A stretch of DNA of 64,000 nucleotides from Hoeflea ulvae. Lineage in GTDB: Bacteria > Pseudomonadota > Alphaproteobacteria > Rhizobiales > Rhizobiaceae. The stretch covers positions 689,501-753,500 of the forward strand of contig NZ_JAOVZQ010000001.1 in the NCBI RefSeq assembly GCF_026619435.1, given 5' to 3'. A program made the position numbers and the translations under genes. The notes under the pieces are model-generated. The model was not told the DNA's origin, did not search any database, and saw only the letters and a program-made list of their open reading frames with translations. Below are positions 3,154 through 15,529 of this stretch, one piece after another. Within the stretch, counting starts at the first letter, position 1. Each line of letters begins with the position of its first letter.

Positions 3154-3435
3154 ATGGCAAATGTCGAGAAAATCAGTGTCGCGTTGACGCCTGAAATGGC
3201 GATGACCATGCGCCGCGCGGTCGAATCCGGTGAATATGCATCGGCAAGCGAAGTCATGCGCGAGGCCATGCGCGAATGGCAATTGCGCCGCGCCGAACGC
3301 GAACAGGCGCTTGCGCAGCTGGGGAACCTCTGGGACGAGGGCATAGCCAGCGGTGACGCCACAGACGGCGAGGCCGCCTTTGCTCGCATCAAGCACTCGC
3401 TTGACACCAAGATCGGCAATGGCGGGTCCCTGTGA
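3154..3435 (+). CDS. parD: ParD-family antitoxin
   Basis: A 93-residue type II antitoxin. Residues 1-50 (KISVALTPEMAMTMRRAVESGEYASASEVMREAM) form a ribbon-helix-helix DNA-binding domain; the remainder is a flexible toxin-neutralising tail. AGGAG (3141-3145) lies 8 bases before ATG. The stop overlaps the toxin start in GTGA, so the two are translationally coupled. The palindrome at 3113-3131 is the likely autoregulatory operator. Confidence 0.88.
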   Translation: MANVEKISVALTPEMAMTMRRAVESGEYASASEVMREAMREWQLRRAEREQALAQLGNLWDEGIASGDATDGEAAFARIKHSLDTKIGNGGSL

Positions 3436-3719
3436 GCTTCAGGCTCACACCGCGGGCCGAAGCCGACATCACTGCCATCGTGCTCTACATCGCTGAAGAC
3501 AACCCGGCAGCCGCGGTTCGCTGGTACGACGACATGTTGCGCCACTGCCGGAACCTGGGCGCAGTGCCCGAACTGGGCGTGGCGCGGCCGGATGTCCGGC
3601 CCGATCTCAGAACCTTCCCGGCCGGGAACTACATGATCCTCTATCGCAAGAGTGACGAAGGTGCCGAGATCGTCCGCGTCGTGCACGGCGCGCGCCAGTG
3701 GCAGAAGCTGCTCGACTAA
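3432..3719 (+). CDS. parE: ParE-family toxin
   Basis: A 95-residue RelE/ParE-superfamily toxin: FRLTPRAEADITAIVLYIAED at the N-terminus and a C-terminal AGNYMILYRKSDEGAEIVRVVHGARQW, the usual ParE ending with the HGAR motif. ParE toxins inhibit DNA gyrase in studied cases; the target here is inferred. The start is GTG 3432, overlapping the antitoxin stop by 4 bases. The stop is only 9 bases from the convergent EI24-like gene. Confidence 0.87.
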   Translation: MSFRLTPRAEADITAIVLYIAEDNPAAAVRWYDDMLRHCRNLGAVPELGVARPDVRPDLRTFPAGNYMILYRKSDEGAEIVRVVHGARQWQKLLD

Positions 3720-4667: not shown

Positions 4668-5780
4668 ATGTCCGCACCGCGGATACGCCCAGCCACCATT
4701 TCCGACATTGATGCGCTCGATGCCATCGAGACCGCGGTGTTTTCCGCTGACCGGATTTCCCGCCGCTCTTTCCGCACGCTGATTGACCGGCCGACCGCCG
4801 AAACCATTGTCATCGAGGCCGGTGGCGAGGTCTGCGGCTACGCCATGATCCTGTTTCGTGCGGGTGCTGCACTGGCCCGGCTCTATTCGCTGGCGGTTGC
4901 CCCCGGCCACACCGGTAAGGGCTTTGGCCGGGCACTGCTCGCCGCCGCCGAAGCCGCCGCGATGGATCACGACCGGATTCTCTTGCGGCTCGAAGTCCGC
5001 GAGGACAACGAGACCGCCATCGCACTCTACAGAAACGCGTCCTACCGCCGGATCGGCCGCGTGGCCGACTATTATGCCGACGGGATGGCGGCGCTGAAGT
5101 TCGAAAAGCTGCTGCGCGGGCCGGAATCTCCGGCTGTCCGCACCCCGTTTTATGAACAGACCGCGGATTTCACCTGCGGCTCGGCCTGCCTGCTGATGGC
5201 GCTGGCCCGGTTCCGCTCGCCCAATTTTCTCGATCCGGTCTGGGAAATCCGGCTCTGGCGCGAGGCCACCACCGTGTTCATGTTGTCGGGCCCCGGCGGC
5301 TGCGAACCCTTTGGCCTGGCTATGGTGGCGCGCGATCACGGGCTCAATCCGGAAGTCTGGTGCTCCACCGAAGAGATGCTGTTTCTCGAAACCGTGCGCG
5401 ATCCGGAAAAACGCCGGGTCATGGAACTGGCGCAGACCGATTTCCGCGCCCGTGTCGCCGAGGCCGGCACGCCGGTGCATTCGGAGGCGTTCACGCTTGA
5501 CTGGCTGCGCGACCGGCTGGCCGAGGGCCATGTCGCCATCATCCTGGTCAGCGGCTATCTGATGATGGGCAAGAAGGTTCCGCACTGGGTGCTTGCCCAT
5601 GGCGATGACGGCCGCCACATCTTCGTGCATGACCCCTGGGTCGAGGACGAGGTCGGCGAGACCATCGATGACGCCGCCAATATTCCGGTGCCCTATGCCG
5701 TGTTTGACCGGATCGCCCGTTTCGGCCGCTCGGGCCTGCGCGCCGCAGTCCTTATCAAGGGAAATTTGCTCCATGTCTGA
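4668..5780 (+). CDS. GNAT acetyltransferase fused to C39-like peptidase
   Basis: A 370-residue two-domain protein. Residues 1-150 are a GNAT N-acetyltransferase with acetyl-CoA loop GHTGKGFGRALL (80-91) and the DNETAIALYRNASYRRIG strand-helix. Residues 155-370 are a papain-like peptidase of the C39-like family, with likely triad Cys170 (DFTCGSAC), His306 (PHWVLAHG) and Asp322 (VHDPW). C39 peptidases typically cut peptide leaders after double-glycine motifs, but there is no ABC transporter domain here. The stop overlaps the following ATP-grasp gene by 8 bases, implying a shared pathway. The substrate is unknown; conjugation or trimming of a small peptide or amino acid is inference. Confidence 0.82.
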   Translation: MSAPRIRPATISDIDALDAIETAVFSADRISRRSFRTLIDRPTAETIVIEAGGEVCGYAMILFRAGAALARLYSLAVAPGHTGKGFGRALLAAAEAAAMDHDRILLRLEVREDNETAIALYRNASYRRIGRVADYYADGMAALKFEKLLRGPESPAVRTPFYEQTADFTCGSACLLMALARFRSPNFLDPVWEIRLWREATTVFMLSGPGGCEPFGLAMVARDHGLNPEVWCSTEEMLFLETVRDPEKRRVMELAQTDFRARVAEAGTPVHSEAFTLDWLRDRLAEGHVAIILVSGYLMMGKKVPHWVLAHGDDGRHIFVHDPWVEDEVGETIDDAANIPVPYAVFDRIARFGRSGLRAAVLIKGNLLHV

Positions 5781-7230
5781 CTGGATCATTCTGTCCACCG
5801 CGCTGGCGGGCTTTGACCACACCGCCACCAAGCACAAGGTGCTCGCCACCCGCGATTACCTGGCCAAGCCGGAAATGTTTCGCGGCGCGCGGCCCAACAT
5901 CATCAACCTGTCGCGCTCCTATGCCTATCAGAGCCGCGGTTATTACGCCTCGCTGCTGGCGGCGGCACGCGGCCAGCGGGTGATTCCCTCGGTCGAGACC
6001 ATCATCGATCTCTCAGCCCGCAAGCTCTACGAGAACGCGGTTCCTGAACTCGAGGATACGCTCAACAAGAGCCTGCGCGGCCAGGCCGGCGATCCGCTGC
6101 CCTCGCGGCTGCGGGTGTTTTTCGGCACCTGCACCGACCCGCGGCTCGAGCGCTTCGGCCGGCTGCTGTTTGACTGGTTCCGCGCCCCCATTCTCGAACT
6201 CACGCTCAAGCAGGGAGACTGGATCTCGATTTCCAGGATCGGGTTGTTGCCGTTCGGCAAGCTCGATGACGCCGGGCGCGAGACGTTGTTTCAGGCCATG
6301 GCGCGCTACACCGCGCGGCAGTGGAAAGACGCAAAATCCCGGGCGCCGGCGCGCTATTCCTTCGCCACCCTGGTCGATCCCGACGAGGCGCTGCCGCCGT
6401 CTTCGATCTCCAGTCTCAAGCACTGGTCGCGGATTGCGGCGCGGATGGGCGTGTCGGTGGAGCCGATCACCCGCAAGGATCTGCCGCGTCTGGCCAATTT
6501 CGACGCGCTGTTCATCCGCGAAACCACCTCGATCTCCAACCACACCTATCGCTTTGCCCGCCGCGCCCAGCAGGAGGGCATGCCGGTGATTGATGATCCG
6601 GTGTCGATGATCCGCTGCACCAACAAGGTCTATCTTGATGAGCTGATGTCATCCAATGGCATCCCGGTGCCCGTTACGGTGATGCTGATCGGGCCGGAGG
6701 ATTTCCAGCGCGCCGCCGATTTGTTGGGCTTTCCGATGGTACTGAAAGTGCCGGATTCGTCCTTTTCCAGAGGTGTCAAGAAAGTCGCCTCGATGGCGGA
6801 GCTCAAGGCGCTGGCCGGCGCCTGGCTGCACGATTCCGAGGTGTTGATCGCGCAGAAATACATGCCGACCAGTTTTGACTGGCGCATCGGCGTGCTCGGC
6901 GGCAAGCCGCTGTTTGCCGTGCAATATCTGATGGCCAAGCAGCATTGGCAGATCGTCAAGCACGACACCGGCGGCAAGCCGCTGGAAGGCGGCTTCAAGT
7001 CGTTCTCGCTGGCGCAGGTGCCGCCCTTGGTGCTCGACACCGGCCTGCGCGCCGCCTGTTCGGTGGGCGACGGGCTTTACGGTGTCGATCTCAAGGAAAC
7101 CGATGACGGCGTCTTTGTCATCGAGGTCAATGACAATCCCAATCTCGAGCATGGCGTCGAGGATGCGGCGGAAAAGGACGAGGTCTGGATCCGGTTGACC
7201 AACTGGTTCATCGAACGCATTGCCACCTGA
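5773..7230 (+). CDS. RimK-type ATP-grasp ligase with RLAN N-terminal domain
   Basis: A 485-residue predicted amide-bond ligase. Residues about 1-200 match the RLAN (RimK-like ATP-grasp N-terminal) type, with PNIINLSRSYAYQSRGYYAS. Residues about 200-485 are the ATP-grasp fold: LGFPMVLKVPDSSFSRGV (ATP-binding Lys325), DWRIGVLGGKPLFAVQYL and the Mg site VFVIEVNDNPNLEHG (Glu451, Asn453, Asn455). RimK itself adds glutamates to ribosomal protein S6; this divergent group has no established substrate. Start ATG 5773 has AAGGGA upstream and lies inside the end of the peptidase gene, so translation is coupled. Confidence 0.85.
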   Translation: MSDWIILSTALAGFDHTATKHKVLATRDYLAKPEMFRGARPNIINLSRSYAYQSRGYYASLLAAARGQRVIPSVETIIDLSARKLYENAVPELEDTLNKSLRGQAGDPLPSRLRVFFGTCTDPRLERFGRLLFDWFRAPILELTLKQGDWISISRIGLLPFGKLDDAGRETLFQAMARYTARQWKDAKSRAPARYSFATLVDPDEALPPSSISSLKHWSRIAARMGVSVEPITRKDLPRLANFDALFIRETTSISNHTYRFARRAQQEGMPVIDDPVSMIRCTNKVYLDELMSSNGIPVPVTVMLIGPEDFQRAADLLGFPMVLKVPDSSFSRGVKKVASMAELKALAGAWLHDSEVLIAQKYMPTSFDWRIGVLGGKPLFAVQYLMAKQHWQIVKHDTGGKPLEGGFKSFSLAQVPPLVLDTGLRAACSVGDGLYGVDLKETDDGVFVIEVNDNPNLEHGVEDAAEKDEVWIRLTNWFIERIAT

Positions 7231-7347: not shown

Positions 7348-10188
7348 ATGTTGAAAACCGCCGAAGACAGCCTCAATCTCAACCAGATTGTCGATCCGGC
7401 GGTGTTGCGTGAAACCCTCGACGCCATCGCCACTGAGCATGGCGGCGCCAGCCTGGAGGCCCGGCAGGCGGTGCTGGCCGAGGTCAAGCGCGTCAATGCC
7501 GAAGGCCGCGAAACCGCCCGCACCATGCTGTTTGACGATGGCGGCGGCACAGCCTGCGCCACCCGGATCTCGCATTTGCAGGACGTCATCACTTCGGCGC
7601 TCTATGATTACGCCAGCATCCATGTCTACCGCGTCGAAAACCCCTCGACGTCGGAACGCATGACCGTCACCGCTGTCGGCGGCTATGGCCGCGGCACCCT
7701 GGCGCCGGGCTCCGATATCGATCTCTTGTTCGTGCTGCCCTACAAGAACACCGCCTGGACCGAACAGGTGGTCGAATGGATCCTCTATATCTTGTGGGAC
7801 ATGGGGCTGAAGGTCGGCCACGCCACCCGCAATGTCGATGAGTGCATCCGGCTGTCGCGCTCCGACATGACCATCCGCACCGCCATTCTCGAAGCCCGGT
7901 TTTTGTGCGGCGAGCGCACATTGTTTGCCAATCTGGCCGACCGCTACGACAATGAAGTAGTGGAGGGCACCGGGCCGGAGTTCATCGCCGCCAAGCTTGC
8001 CGAGCGTGACGAACGTCACCGCAAATCCGGCGATACCCGCTATCTGGTCGAACCCAATGTCAAGGAAGGCAAGGGCGGGCTTCGCGATCTCAACACCCTG
8101 TTCTGGATCGCCAAATATTTCTACGATATCCGCGACACCAAGGAGCTTGTCGGGTTAGGCGTGCTGTCAAAGCGCGAGTTCAACCTGTTCGTCAAGGCCG
8201 AGGATTTTCTCTGGGCGGTGCGCTGCCACATGCATTTTCTCACCGGAAAATCCGAAGAGCGGCTGTCGTTTGACATCCAGCGCGACATCGCCTCGGGCCT
8301 GGGCTACCAGGATCACCCCGGCCTCTCCGCGGTCGAGCGCTTCATGAAGCACTATTTTCTCGTCGCCAAGGATGTCGGCGACCTGACCCGCATCTTCTGC
8401 GCCGGTCTGGAAGACCAGCAGGCCAAGCAGGCGCCGGGCCTGACCGGCGTCATCACCCGCTTCGCCAGCCGTCCGCGCAAGATCCCCGGCACGCTCGATT
8501 TCATCGAGGACAAGGGCCGGATCAACATTGCCAATGCGGATGTGTTCAAAAACGATCCCGTCAACATCATCCGGCTGTTTCATCTCGCCGATATACGCGG
8601 GCTCGAGTTCCATCCCGACGCACTCAAGCGCGTCACCCGCTCATTCCGGCTTATCAATGCCGAACTGCGCGAAAACGAGGAAGCCAACCGGCTGTTCCTG
8701 TCGATCCTGACATCAAGACGCCAGCCGGCGATCATTCTCAGGCGCATGAACGAGGCCGGCGTGCTGGGCCGTTTCATCCCGGAATTCGGCAAGATCGTCG
8801 CGATGATGCAGTTCAACATGTATCACCACTACACGGTCGATGAGCATCTGATCCGCACCGTCGCGGTGCTGTCGAGCATCGACAAGGGCGAGGAGGAGCG
8901 CGAGCATCCGCTGGCCAACAAGCTTCTGCCCAGCATCGAGGAGCGCGAGGCGCTCTATGTCGCGGTGTTCCTGCACGACATCGCCAAGGGAAGGCCCGAA
9001 GACCACTCCACCGCCGGCGCCAAGGTGGCGCGCAAGCTGTGCCCGCGGCTGGGTCTGACGCCGAACCAGACAGAACTCGTGGTCTGGCTGATTTCCGAAC
9101 ACCTGACCATGTCGATGGTGGCGCAGACGCGCGATCTCAACGACCGCAAGACCATCACCGATTTCGGCGAGAAGGTCCGCACCCTGGAGCGGCTGAAAAT
9201 GCTGCTGGTGCTGTCGGTGTGCGACATCCGCGCCGTCGGCCCCGGGGTCTGGAACGGCTGGAAGGGGCAATTGCTGCGCACGCTCTATTACGAAACCGAG
9301 CTGATGCTGTCGGGCGGATTTTCCGAAGTCTCGCGCAAGCAGCGCACGGCGCATGCCCGCGAAGCGCTGGGCGAAGCGCTGTCGGGCTGGAGCGACAAGG
9401 AGCGCGCAGCCTATCTCAAGCTTCATTACGAGCCCTATCTGCTGGCGGTGCCGCTGGAAGAACAGCTCCGTCATGCCGAGTTCATCCGCGAGACCGACAA
9501 GGCAGGCAAACGGCTTGCCACCATGGTCCGCACCAATGCGTTTCATGCCATCACCGAGATCACGCTGCTGTCGCCGGACCATCCGCGGCTCTTGTCCATC
9601 GTCACCGGCGCCTGCGCCGCTGCCGGCGCCAACATCGCCGATGCGCAGGTCTTCACCACCTCCGACGGTCGCGCCCTCGACACCATCCTGATCAACCGCG
9701 AACTGCCAGATGACGCCGACGAACTCCGGCGCGGCGCCTCGATCGGTCGGATGATCGAGGATGTGCTGGCCGGCAAGACCCACATGCCGGAAGTGATCGC
9801 CCGCAAGACCGGCGCCAGGCGCAAGCCGCGGCCTTTCATCGTCAAGCCCCAGGTCACCATCTCCAACACGTTGTCCAACAAGTTCACGGTCATCGAATTC
9901 GAATGTCTTGACCGCACCGGCCTGCTCTCCGAGGTGACCTCGGTGCTGTCGGACCTGTCGCTCGACATTGCCTCGGCGCATATCACCACCTTTGGCGAAA
10001 AGGTGGTGGACACCTTCTATGTGCGTGATCTCGTCGGCATGAAGATCACCAGCGAGACCCGGCAGCTCAACATCGCGGCAAGGCTCAAGGCGGTGCTCGC
10101 CAAGGAAGAGGACGAAGTCCGCGACAAGATGCCCTCGGGCATGATCGCGCCGCAGGGCTCCTCCCGCCGCGGCCGGACGCCGGCCTGA
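7348..10188 (+). CDS. glnD: [Protein-PII] uridylyltransferase / uridylyl-removing enzyme
   Basis: Senses glutamine and uridylylates or deuridylylates PII proteins, setting nitrogen assimilation. The 946 residues follow the GlnD order: nucleotidyltransferase domain with [18 protein letters not shown] (111-128; Asp123 and Asp125), the linking PII-UTase domain, an HD hydrolase domain with [15 protein letters not shown] near residue 545, and two C-terminal ACT domains ([19 protein letters not shown] and [18 protein letters not shown]) that bind glutamine. Length is near the rhizobial norm. The ATG has a modest AGGAC site. It sits just before murJ, as in other rhizobia. Confidence 0.97.
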
Positions 10189-14354: not shown

Positions 14355-15038
14355 GTGTTGACACTTGCCATCGATTGTTCCGCTCGGTTCTGCTCCGTAG
14401 CGCTTTTCCAGGATGACACGGACCTGATCCTGGCGTCTGCCAGTCCGGATATCGGCCGCGGCCATGCCGAGCATCTGCCGGCTGTCCTGCAATCTGTTCT
14501 CGATGAAGCCGGCGTGGCGCTGCCTGATCTCGGCCGGATCGGTGTTTCGATCGGTCCCGGATCCTTTGCCGGCATCCGCGTCGGCGTCGCATTTGCCCGC
14601 GGGCTGGCGCTGGCGCTTGACGTGCCGGTGGTCGGTGTCGGGTCGCTGGAAGCCATCGCGATCCCAGCTGCGCAGCAGAGCGGCAAGCCCGTGCTGGCAG
14701 TGCTCGATGCCGGGCGCGATTGCGTCTGGGCGCTGCTGGTCGGCGCTGACGGCTGCCCGTCTGCGCCTGCCGCCGAACTCACGCCTGCAGCGGCCGTTGC
14801 GCTGGCGCTTGAAGCCCGATGCGCGCTCAGCGGCAGCGGCGCACCATTGCTGGCCGCTCTTGACGCCGCGCTCGAACCCCACGTGCTGACCGATCTGGTG
14901 GCGCCTCGGATCGAGGATGTGGCGCGTCTGGCGGCAAGGCTCGATCCGCAGGCCAATCCCGCCGAACCACGCTATCTGCGTGAAGCCGACGCCAAGCCGC
15001 AGGCCGGCTTCGCCGTGCCGCACGAGGTTCCGGCCTGA
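14355..15038 (+). CDS. tsaB: tRNA threonylcarbamoyladenosine biosynthesis protein TsaB
   Basis: Partner of TsaD and TsaE in t6A37 modification of ANN-decoding tRNAs. The 227-residue ASKHA-fold protein begins LTLAIDCSARFCSVALF and carries IGVSIGPGSFAGIRVGVAFARGLA near residue 65, the TsaB signature. The start is GTG 14355, since the family begins right at the LAIDTS-like strand. The stop shares one base with the rimI start (TGATG), a conserved tsaB-rimI coupling. Confidence 0.94.
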   Translation: MLTLAIDCSARFCSVALFQDDTDLILASASPDIGRGHAEHLPAVLQSVLDEAGVALPDLGRIGVSIGPGSFAGIRVGVAFARGLALALDVPVVGVGSLEAIAIPAAQQSGKPVLAVLDAGRDCVWALLVGADGCPSAPAAELTPAAAVALALEARCALSGSGAPLLAALDAALEPHVLTDLVAPRIEDVARLAARLDPQANPAEPRYLREADAKPQAGFAVPHEVPA

Positions 15039-15529
15039 TGGTGTTCAATCCGTTTGGCCGCAAGCCGGAATGCCTGATTCTCGAGATCGAGATGAAGGAT
15101 GCGCGCACGGCGTCGCGCATTCACGGCGAGGCCTTCGCCCGCGCCTGGGGTGACGGGGAATTCGAGAGCCTGATTACCCAGCCATCCGTGTTCGGCTTTC
15201 TGGCCTGTCCGGAAGGCCGCGCCCGCGACGGTGCGGCCGGTTTCGTGCTGTGCCGCGAGGCCGCCGGCGAAGCCGAGATCCTGTCGATCGGCATCACCCC
15301 GAAACAGCGCCGCAGCGGGCTCGGCTGGCGGCTGATGCGCAGCGCCATGCAGGAAGCCAAGCGCCGTGGCGCGGAGGAAATGTTCCTCGAGGTCGACGAG
15401 ACCAACCTTGCGGCTGTCACGATGTACCGCAAGCTCAAATTCGTCCAGGTCGGCGAACGGCGGGCCTATTACGTCCAGGAAGGTGCTGCGCGCACGACTG
15501 CGCTTGTCATGCGCTGTGATCTTCGTTAG
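15038..15529 (+). CDS. rimI: Ribosomal protein S18-alanine N-acetyltransferase-like GNAT protein
   Basis: A 163-residue GNAT protein. The acetyl-CoA loop is ITPKQRRSGLGWRLMRSAM (about 87-105), then LEVDETNLAAVTMYRKLKFVQVGERRAYY, the RimI-type substrate end. RimI acetylates the N-terminal Ala of S18, and some homologues act more widely. Gene overlap with tsaB supports the name. The first 25 residues (FGRKPECLILEIEMKDART) are slightly longer than in E. coli RimI (148 residues). Confidence 0.9.
   Translation: MVFNPFGRKPECLILEIEMKDARTASRIHGEAFARAWGDGEFESLITQPSVFGFLACPEGRARDGAAGFVLCREAAGEAEILSIGITPKQRRSGLGWRLMRSAMQEAKRRGAEEMFLEVDETNLAAVTMYRKLKFVQVGERRAYYVQEGAARTTALVMRCDLR

Follow-up and report, generated by a model that had tools for sequence, protein, structure and literature searches.

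An acetyltransferase and RLAN ATP-grasp ligase unit with an optional DUF3335 peptidase: a candidate N-acetyl-peptide synthetase in Hoeflea ulvae

The window analysed here, a stretch of 64,000 nucleotides from Hoeflea ulvae (contig NZ_JAOVZQ010000001.1, positions 689,501 to 753,500), contains two overlapping genes for a GNAT acetyltransferase fused to a papain-like peptidase and for an RLAN/ATP-grasp ligase (Table 1). The core of this unit is ACETYLTRANSFERASE + ligase, and the peptidase domain is an optional part of it. By analogy with NAGGN synthetase (Ngg), we propose, with a probability of roughly 0.45, that the pair forms an N-acetyl-peptide synthetase system in which the hydrolytic partner is optional. 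More tentatively, GNAT plus RLAN-ATP-grasp might constitute a second class of N-acetyl-peptide synthetase that was assembled separately from Ngg and parallels it, found in the Alpha- and Gammaproteobacteria and reaching the Bacteroidota, which would make an undescribed acetyl-capped peptide metabolite turned over by the optional cysteine peptidase.

Table 1. Features of the gene pair; positions are those of the window.
Feature	Position	Strand	Remarks
Gene 1: GNAT acetyltransferase fused to DUF3335 papain-like peptidase	4668-5780	+	370 aa
GNAT domain of gene 1	4668-5126	+	Nearest in sequence and fold to the RimI/Ard1/Naa10 N-alpha-acetyltransferases
DUF3335 peptidase domain of gene 1 (residues 160-364)	5145-5759	+	Putative catalytic Cys170, His306 and Asp322; probable oxyanion residue Gln164
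Overlap of gene 1 (end) and gene 2 (start)	5773-5780	+	8 bases
Gene 2: RLAN + RimK/LysX-type ATP-grasp ligase	5773-7230	+	485 aa; ATG at 5773
RLAN N-terminal domain of gene 2 (residues 27-174)	5851-6294	+	Well conserved
Pre-ATP-grasp and ATP-grasp region of gene 2 (about residues 195-485)	6355-7227	+	

The layout described in the sequence-only reading of this DNA, two genes overlapping by 8 bases, is borne out, as is the domain composition that it gave to both products. The product of gene 1 matches Acetyltransf_1 (60.2 bits) and DUF3335 (PF11814; 249.2 bits against a curated threshold of 25), and that of gene 2 matches RLAN (PF14401; 147.2 bits) and RimK (PF08443; 31.7 bits), both over threshold. 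A mechanical list of open reading frames also offers a longer TTG start for gene 2, at 5593. The nearest named relatives of both proteins are from Hoeflea, with 92% identity for gene 1 and 87% for the best named relative of the ligase, and a profile search of the 5.1 Mb host genome returned a single RLAN match and a single DUF3335 match.

The peptidase residues named in the earlier reading are at the positions it gave and are conserved, Cys170 and His306 in all 94 aligned rows and Asp322 in 85, with Glu in the other nine; with this Cys-His-Asp set, gene 1 is a member of the DUF3335 family of GNAT-fused papain-like peptidases. The roles of the residues of this domain, Gln164 included, are presumed from papain-like enzymes. 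A match to the DUF3335 family is also given by Methanosarcina acetivorans. The label C39 that had been attached to the domain is merely the Pfam name for DUF3335: the C39 bacteriocin-leader peptidase (PF03412) is not among the families matched by gene 1 at E ≤ 0.01, and it appears among the precomputed domains of a few relatives. The predicted acetyl-CoA loop is present, though residue 82 is Thr, at a position occupied by Arg in 41 of the 94 rows. In gene 2, residues Lys285, Lys325, Gln361, Asp439, Glu451, and Asn453 are invariant in an alignment of 72, and their roles in binding ATP and Mg were assigned by alignment to LysX/RimK. Having both domains together with these residues, gene 2 encodes an RLAN ligase. 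The earlier reading had named loss of the catalytic residues in most homologues as evidence against its proposal; they are kept in both families.

Both proteins resemble enzymes of known function and fall below the curated cut-offs for them. Gene 2 scores 79.8 of the 143.4 bits (TIGR00768) and 38.4 of the 331 bits (NF007764) set for RimK S6 glutamate ligases, and 79.3 of 275.6 bits for LysX (TIGR02144). Structure matches were obtained from predictions of the full-length proteins, and the PDB lists are filled by ATP-grasp and GNAT domains; LysX and ArgX are on top for gene 2, RimK is also matched, and an HW stretch is shared with LysX in the alignment. The acetyltransferase fold of gene 1 matches enzymes acting on the alpha-amines of peptides. 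It is the N-alpha-acetyltransferase fold of RimI, which acetylates the N-terminal alanine of S18, but gene 1 reaches 67.3 of the 86.4 bits required for RimI (TIGR01575) and a better candidate is encoded elsewhere in the genome. That gene, at 15038-15529, gives the best RimI match of the genome (79 bits, also under the cut-off) and is located directly after a TsaB-like gene and ahead of a gene for a Fur-like regulator, names which are taken from the translations.

The pairing of DUF3335 with RLAN is real and old, and lies far beyond chance. In a phylum sample of 299 genomes DUF3335 was found in 47, RLAN in 56, and both in 46 (Fisher p 4e-43 by genome, a value that ignores kinship); by genus, 25 are common to the 26 with DUF3335 and the 32 with RLAN (p 2e-21, uncorrected for relatedness above the genus). 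The two matches are at most 3 kb apart in 44 of the 46 genomes, the exceptions being G006 and G193, and the ligase is inside the 1.5 kb flanks of 28 of the first 30 DUF3335 loci. The only genome with DUF3335 and no RLAN encodes a 233-aa protein in which DUF3335 is the one Pfam match. A pairing restricted to close relatives, which the earlier reading would have counted against its proposal, is thus not what the 46 genomes show. In two genomes of the window's own family there are additional copies of DUF3335 whose GNAT domains score weakly, and no RLAN ligase was found near these copies in the stretches examined.

Within this pairing, the acetyltransferase is the constant companion of the ligase. 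Of the 129 ligase loci in the set L061-L194, 127 have an adjoining acetyltransferase, as judged with home-made profiles; clusters of these same loci supplied the profiles, so that members match by construction and the counts rest on adjacency; the 129 include a few places entered twice, e.g. L106 and L185. The peptidase domain is present in 88 of the 127 and missing in 39, although 39 of 129 is no estimate of frequency, some loci having been chosen for their lack of DUF3335, and at the named loci absence refers to the locus, the remaining genome being outside the search. The view that acetyltransferase and peptidase form one inseparable enzyme has therefore to be given up. Of the two remaining loci, L080 has the peptidase and, at the edge of its contig, a fragment of a GNAT, and L154 has neither. 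The latter is from G193, in which the GNAT-DUF3335 gene (L155) and the RLAN ligase are on different contigs and no acetyltransferase lies by the ligase. Both genes are on the same strand with the acetyltransferase first in 105 of the 127 loci, divergent in 19, and ligase-first in 3; of the 47 same-strand pairs in a thinned set, 41 have the start of the ligase domain no more than 30 bases from the upstream stop.

Ten of the 56 RLAN genomes of the 299-genome sample have no DUF3335 match in the whole genome at E ≤ 0.001, and in all ten the ligase retains an acetyltransferase as its neighbour. A second sample, of 337 genomes at class level, gave about 35 ligase matches; of the 30 best of these loci, 29 have the acetyltransferase and 18 the peptidase; once G016, G247, and G280, which were already in the 299-genome sample, are removed, the counts for the 27 new genomes are 26 and 16, respectively. 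The class-level exception (L221, genome G484) has its acetyltransferase match on another contig, and a contig break may explain the absence. On a ligase tree of 68 rows the state of the peptidase changes at least 12 times and gene order twice. This is a quick tree, with rows thinned at 80% identity and 20 of 65 inner branches weakly supported; it does not give the direction of the peptidase changes, and among its rows are second copies from genomes that have a peptidase-fused copy as well (G006, G058).

In some genomes the two core enzymes are joined in one chain. In locus L174 (genome G247) a single open frame of 657 residues without a stop (P0241) covers acetyltransferase, RLAN, and ATP-grasp; it is convergent with a separate GNAT-DUF3335 gene, so that two acetyltransferase domains are present (L174:6399-9505). 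GNAT and RLAN are found in one chain in 51 of the best 120 of 5147 matches to this fusion, leaving out P0291, and the named fusion proteins among the matches listed are from Thalassospira, Cohaesibacter, Rhodothermales, Bacteroidetes, and one unplaced member of the Pseudomonadota. In G412, acetyltransferase and ligase matches are located in one open frame of 817 aa. P0291 (885 aa), which carries GNAT, DUF3335, RLAN, and RimK in one chain, was set aside as a possible frameshift at the gene overlap because its DUF3335 match ends at profile position 190 of 206. The natural single-chain fusions provide one-protein test objects.

Acetylation and ligation are the most natural joint chemistry of the pair. 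In the proposed pathway, the N-alpha-type acetyltransferase would use acetyl-CoA to acetylate an amino acid or a short peptide at its amino group. At the expense of ATP, the RLAN/ATP-grasp ligase would then convert the free carboxylate of this acetylated substrate into an acyl phosphate and couple it to the amino group of a further amino acid; the acetyl cap would prevent self-condensation. The DUF3335 cysteine peptidase, where present, might hydrolyse, trim or recycle the product, and is best read, by analogy, as an optional hydrolase in a role comparable to that of RimB beside RimK. LysX, ArgX, and RimK join amino acids to a carboxylate. In favour of the acyl-peptide reading we count the adjacency of acetyltransferase and ligase at nearly all loci, the direct fusions and the tight coupling, the alpha-amine acetyltransferase fold, the likeness of the ligase to these three enzymes, and the precedent of Ngg. 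Against it count that N-alpha-acetyltransferases and RimK mainly modify proteins, that the second, peptidase-fused acetyltransferase in L174 would be superfluous for a simple two-step scheme, and that in G193 the ligase stands without an acetyltransferase. The earlier proposal that one enzyme acetylates and trims while the other ligates is thereby retained in part: the pair is conserved, with its catalytic residues, and acetylation with ligation is a natural combination, but the trimming domain is dispensable. Were an acetyl-capped peptide the product, a common bacterial metabolite or osmolyte would have been overlooked so far, as the ligase is present in about one in five of the sampled phylum genomes, nearly always by its acetyltransferase.

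The precedent, Ngg (TIGR03103), is described as acetylating one glutamine and forming a peptide bond to a second (PMC8070244). The two systems are alike in having a GNAT followed by an ATP-grasp ligase and a separate hydrolase partner, and the GNAT-RLAN-ligase fusions share the domain order of Ngg. They differ in that Ngg is a GNAT + ATP-grasp polypeptide accompanied in its operon by AsnO and an M42 peptidase, whereas the Hoeflea unit has two genes, an additional RLAN domain, and a papain-like peptidase instead of M42. The ligases also differ in type, which we count against the acyl-peptide reading: that of Hoeflea is of the RimK/LysX type (about 80 bits for either family) and scores 22.5 bits with cyanophycin synthetase, while the Ngg ATP-grasp gives 215 bits with cyanophycin synthetase and 69 bits with the RimK family. 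The two ATP-grasps thus score with different subclades, and therefore the Hoeflea unit is outside the Ngg family and the likeness is one of layout; we suggest that the unit may work like Ngg without belonging to its family. NAGGN itself was rejected as the product, since no match over the TIGR03103 cut-off of 569 bits is present anywhere in the Hoeflea genome; gene 1 scores 23.2 bits. RLAN was found in 7 of 27 NAGGN-positive genomes, with about 5 expected from 56 of 299, so neither system replaces the other. They are neighbours in one of these seven genomes and apart in the other six, which is a further point against the acyl-peptide reading. In the one, G006 (L157:2-9809), genes for GNAT-DUF3335, DUF2817, and DUF155 continue, on the same strand, a NAGGN operon consisting of the C-terminal part of an amidotransferase (cut by the edge of the stretch), Ngg (944 bits), and an M42 peptidase (614 bits), an arrangement that we count in favour of this reading; the RLAN ligase of the genome lies at another site and has its own acetyltransferase (L156, L157).

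The surveys for a fixed third partner and for a conserved small open reading frame that had been suggested were carried out, and neither was found. For the first, the open reading frames of 134 loci (L061-L194) were clustered, ten neighbour proteins were annotated by domain and a few others by eye, and no third gene was common to the whole group among these mostly unannotated clusters. Many recurrent neighbours in Mesorhizobium and the Hyphomonadaceae look like genus-level synteny, and in 17 Mesorhizobium-type loci the gene immediately after the ligase encodes a 90-aa DUF3303 protein (e.g. L086:9475-9747). A DUF2817 gene, presumably akin to the M14 zinc carboxypeptidases, lies at or near the unit in 11 loci (cluster 20; families f28/f29 and two named MAGs), and a DUF155 gene in 7 (cluster 36; families f28, f29, f30), all gammaproteobacterial where named. 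Full-length DUF2817 was found in 40 of the 299 genomes, 25 of which also have RLAN, an overlap inflated by one family; the Hoeflea genome has no DUF2817 match, and a literature search covering few subscription journals returned nothing pertinent, an unrelated trypanosomatid subject aside. For the second, 370 small open reading frames from 68 loci (20-90 aa, at most 1.2 kb away, outside larger genes) were compared after a thinning that took out most Mesorhizobium loci. The single matching pair was from two loci of one genus, and none was common to several genera, although very short or divergent precursors would escape. With the same reservation, this comparison lends no support to a RiPP-like precursor-peptide cluster. 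Of the suggested peptide tailoring, the joint chemistry survives, and for the implied precursor no candidate shared across genera was found.

The main rival is modification of a protein tail after the manner of RimK/RimB, in which the ligase would add amino acids to a protein C-terminus, the peptidase remove them, and the acetyltransferase cap the terminus. We consider it unlikely and yet serious, because both halves resemble protein-modifying enzymes, the ligase being near RimK and LysX in fold and sequence and the acetyltransferase near RimI and Naa10. RimB is reported to be a protease that takes off the glutamates attached by RimK and also stimulates this ligase, and a hybrid enzyme of RimB and RimK exists (PMC11957791); another operon of an ATP-grasp enzyme with an aspartic protease, rloABC, is also on record (PMC12239564). 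Like RimK/RimB, the Hoeflea unit pairs a RimK-family ATP-grasp ligase with a peptidase; unlike it, the unit has an RLAN domain, a cysteine rather than an aspartic peptidase, and a regular acetyltransferase partner, and it stays below the RimK-family and S6-ligase thresholds. Moreover, no small carrier or tail frame recurs across genera, and the putative eraser is missing at the 39 loci without a peptidase.

A carrier-protected biosynthetic or cofactor pathway of the LysX/ArgX kind, in which the ligase would load an amino acid onto a carrier or cofactor and the acetyltransferase protect its amine, appears distinctly improbable. These two enzymes are the best structural and profile matches of the Hoeflea ligase, and LysX has the HW stretch in common with it, but the LysX threshold is not reached and the lack of a cross-genus small frame in the 68 loci indicates that there is no neighbouring carrier gene; lysine or arginine genes may still lie among the unannotated clusters. 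Least probable of all is detoxification or self-protection, with the pair acetylating and conjugating a toxin or antibiotic that resembles an amino acid, in the manner of stand-alone GNAT resistance enzymes: the weak similarity of the GNAT domain to arsinothricin, streptothricin, and aminoglycoside acetyltransferases is throughout under the curated thresholds, the ligase is spread over 56 of 299 genomes with neighbours that vary by lineage (ten annotated), and neither protein matches a PADLOC anti-phage family at E ≤ 0.1.

The RLAN group was reportedly, and probably for the first time, described by Iyer et al. in 2009 in a study of amidoligases. The GNAT-DUF3335 fusion has already been noted (PMC10318531, citing Iyer et al. 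2009), in passages that make no mention of the RLAN ligase, and operons that combine GNAT genes with other ATP-grasp ligases have been presented, with acyl capping of a peptide proposed as a possibility (PMC4431377). As a general idea, the combination of GNAT with ATP-grasp has thus been published already. New, relative to the literature searched (which did not include the 2009 paper), are the direct acetyltransferase-ligase fusions, the optional nature of the peptidase, and the test for obligatory components. The same searches, which covered few subscription journals, returned no literature on RLAN/PF14401 and no substrate assigned to an RLAN ligase.

The gene that follows the pair on the same strand (7348-10188) encodes the PII-uridylyltransferase GlnD. 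It follows the pair in all five Hoeflea loci (L061, L062, L099, L125, and L190) and in no other clustered locus, and is a genus-level neighbour only. Just upstream of the pair, at 3154-3719, are overlapping genes for a ParD-like antitoxin (28 bits) and a ParE toxin (66 bits).
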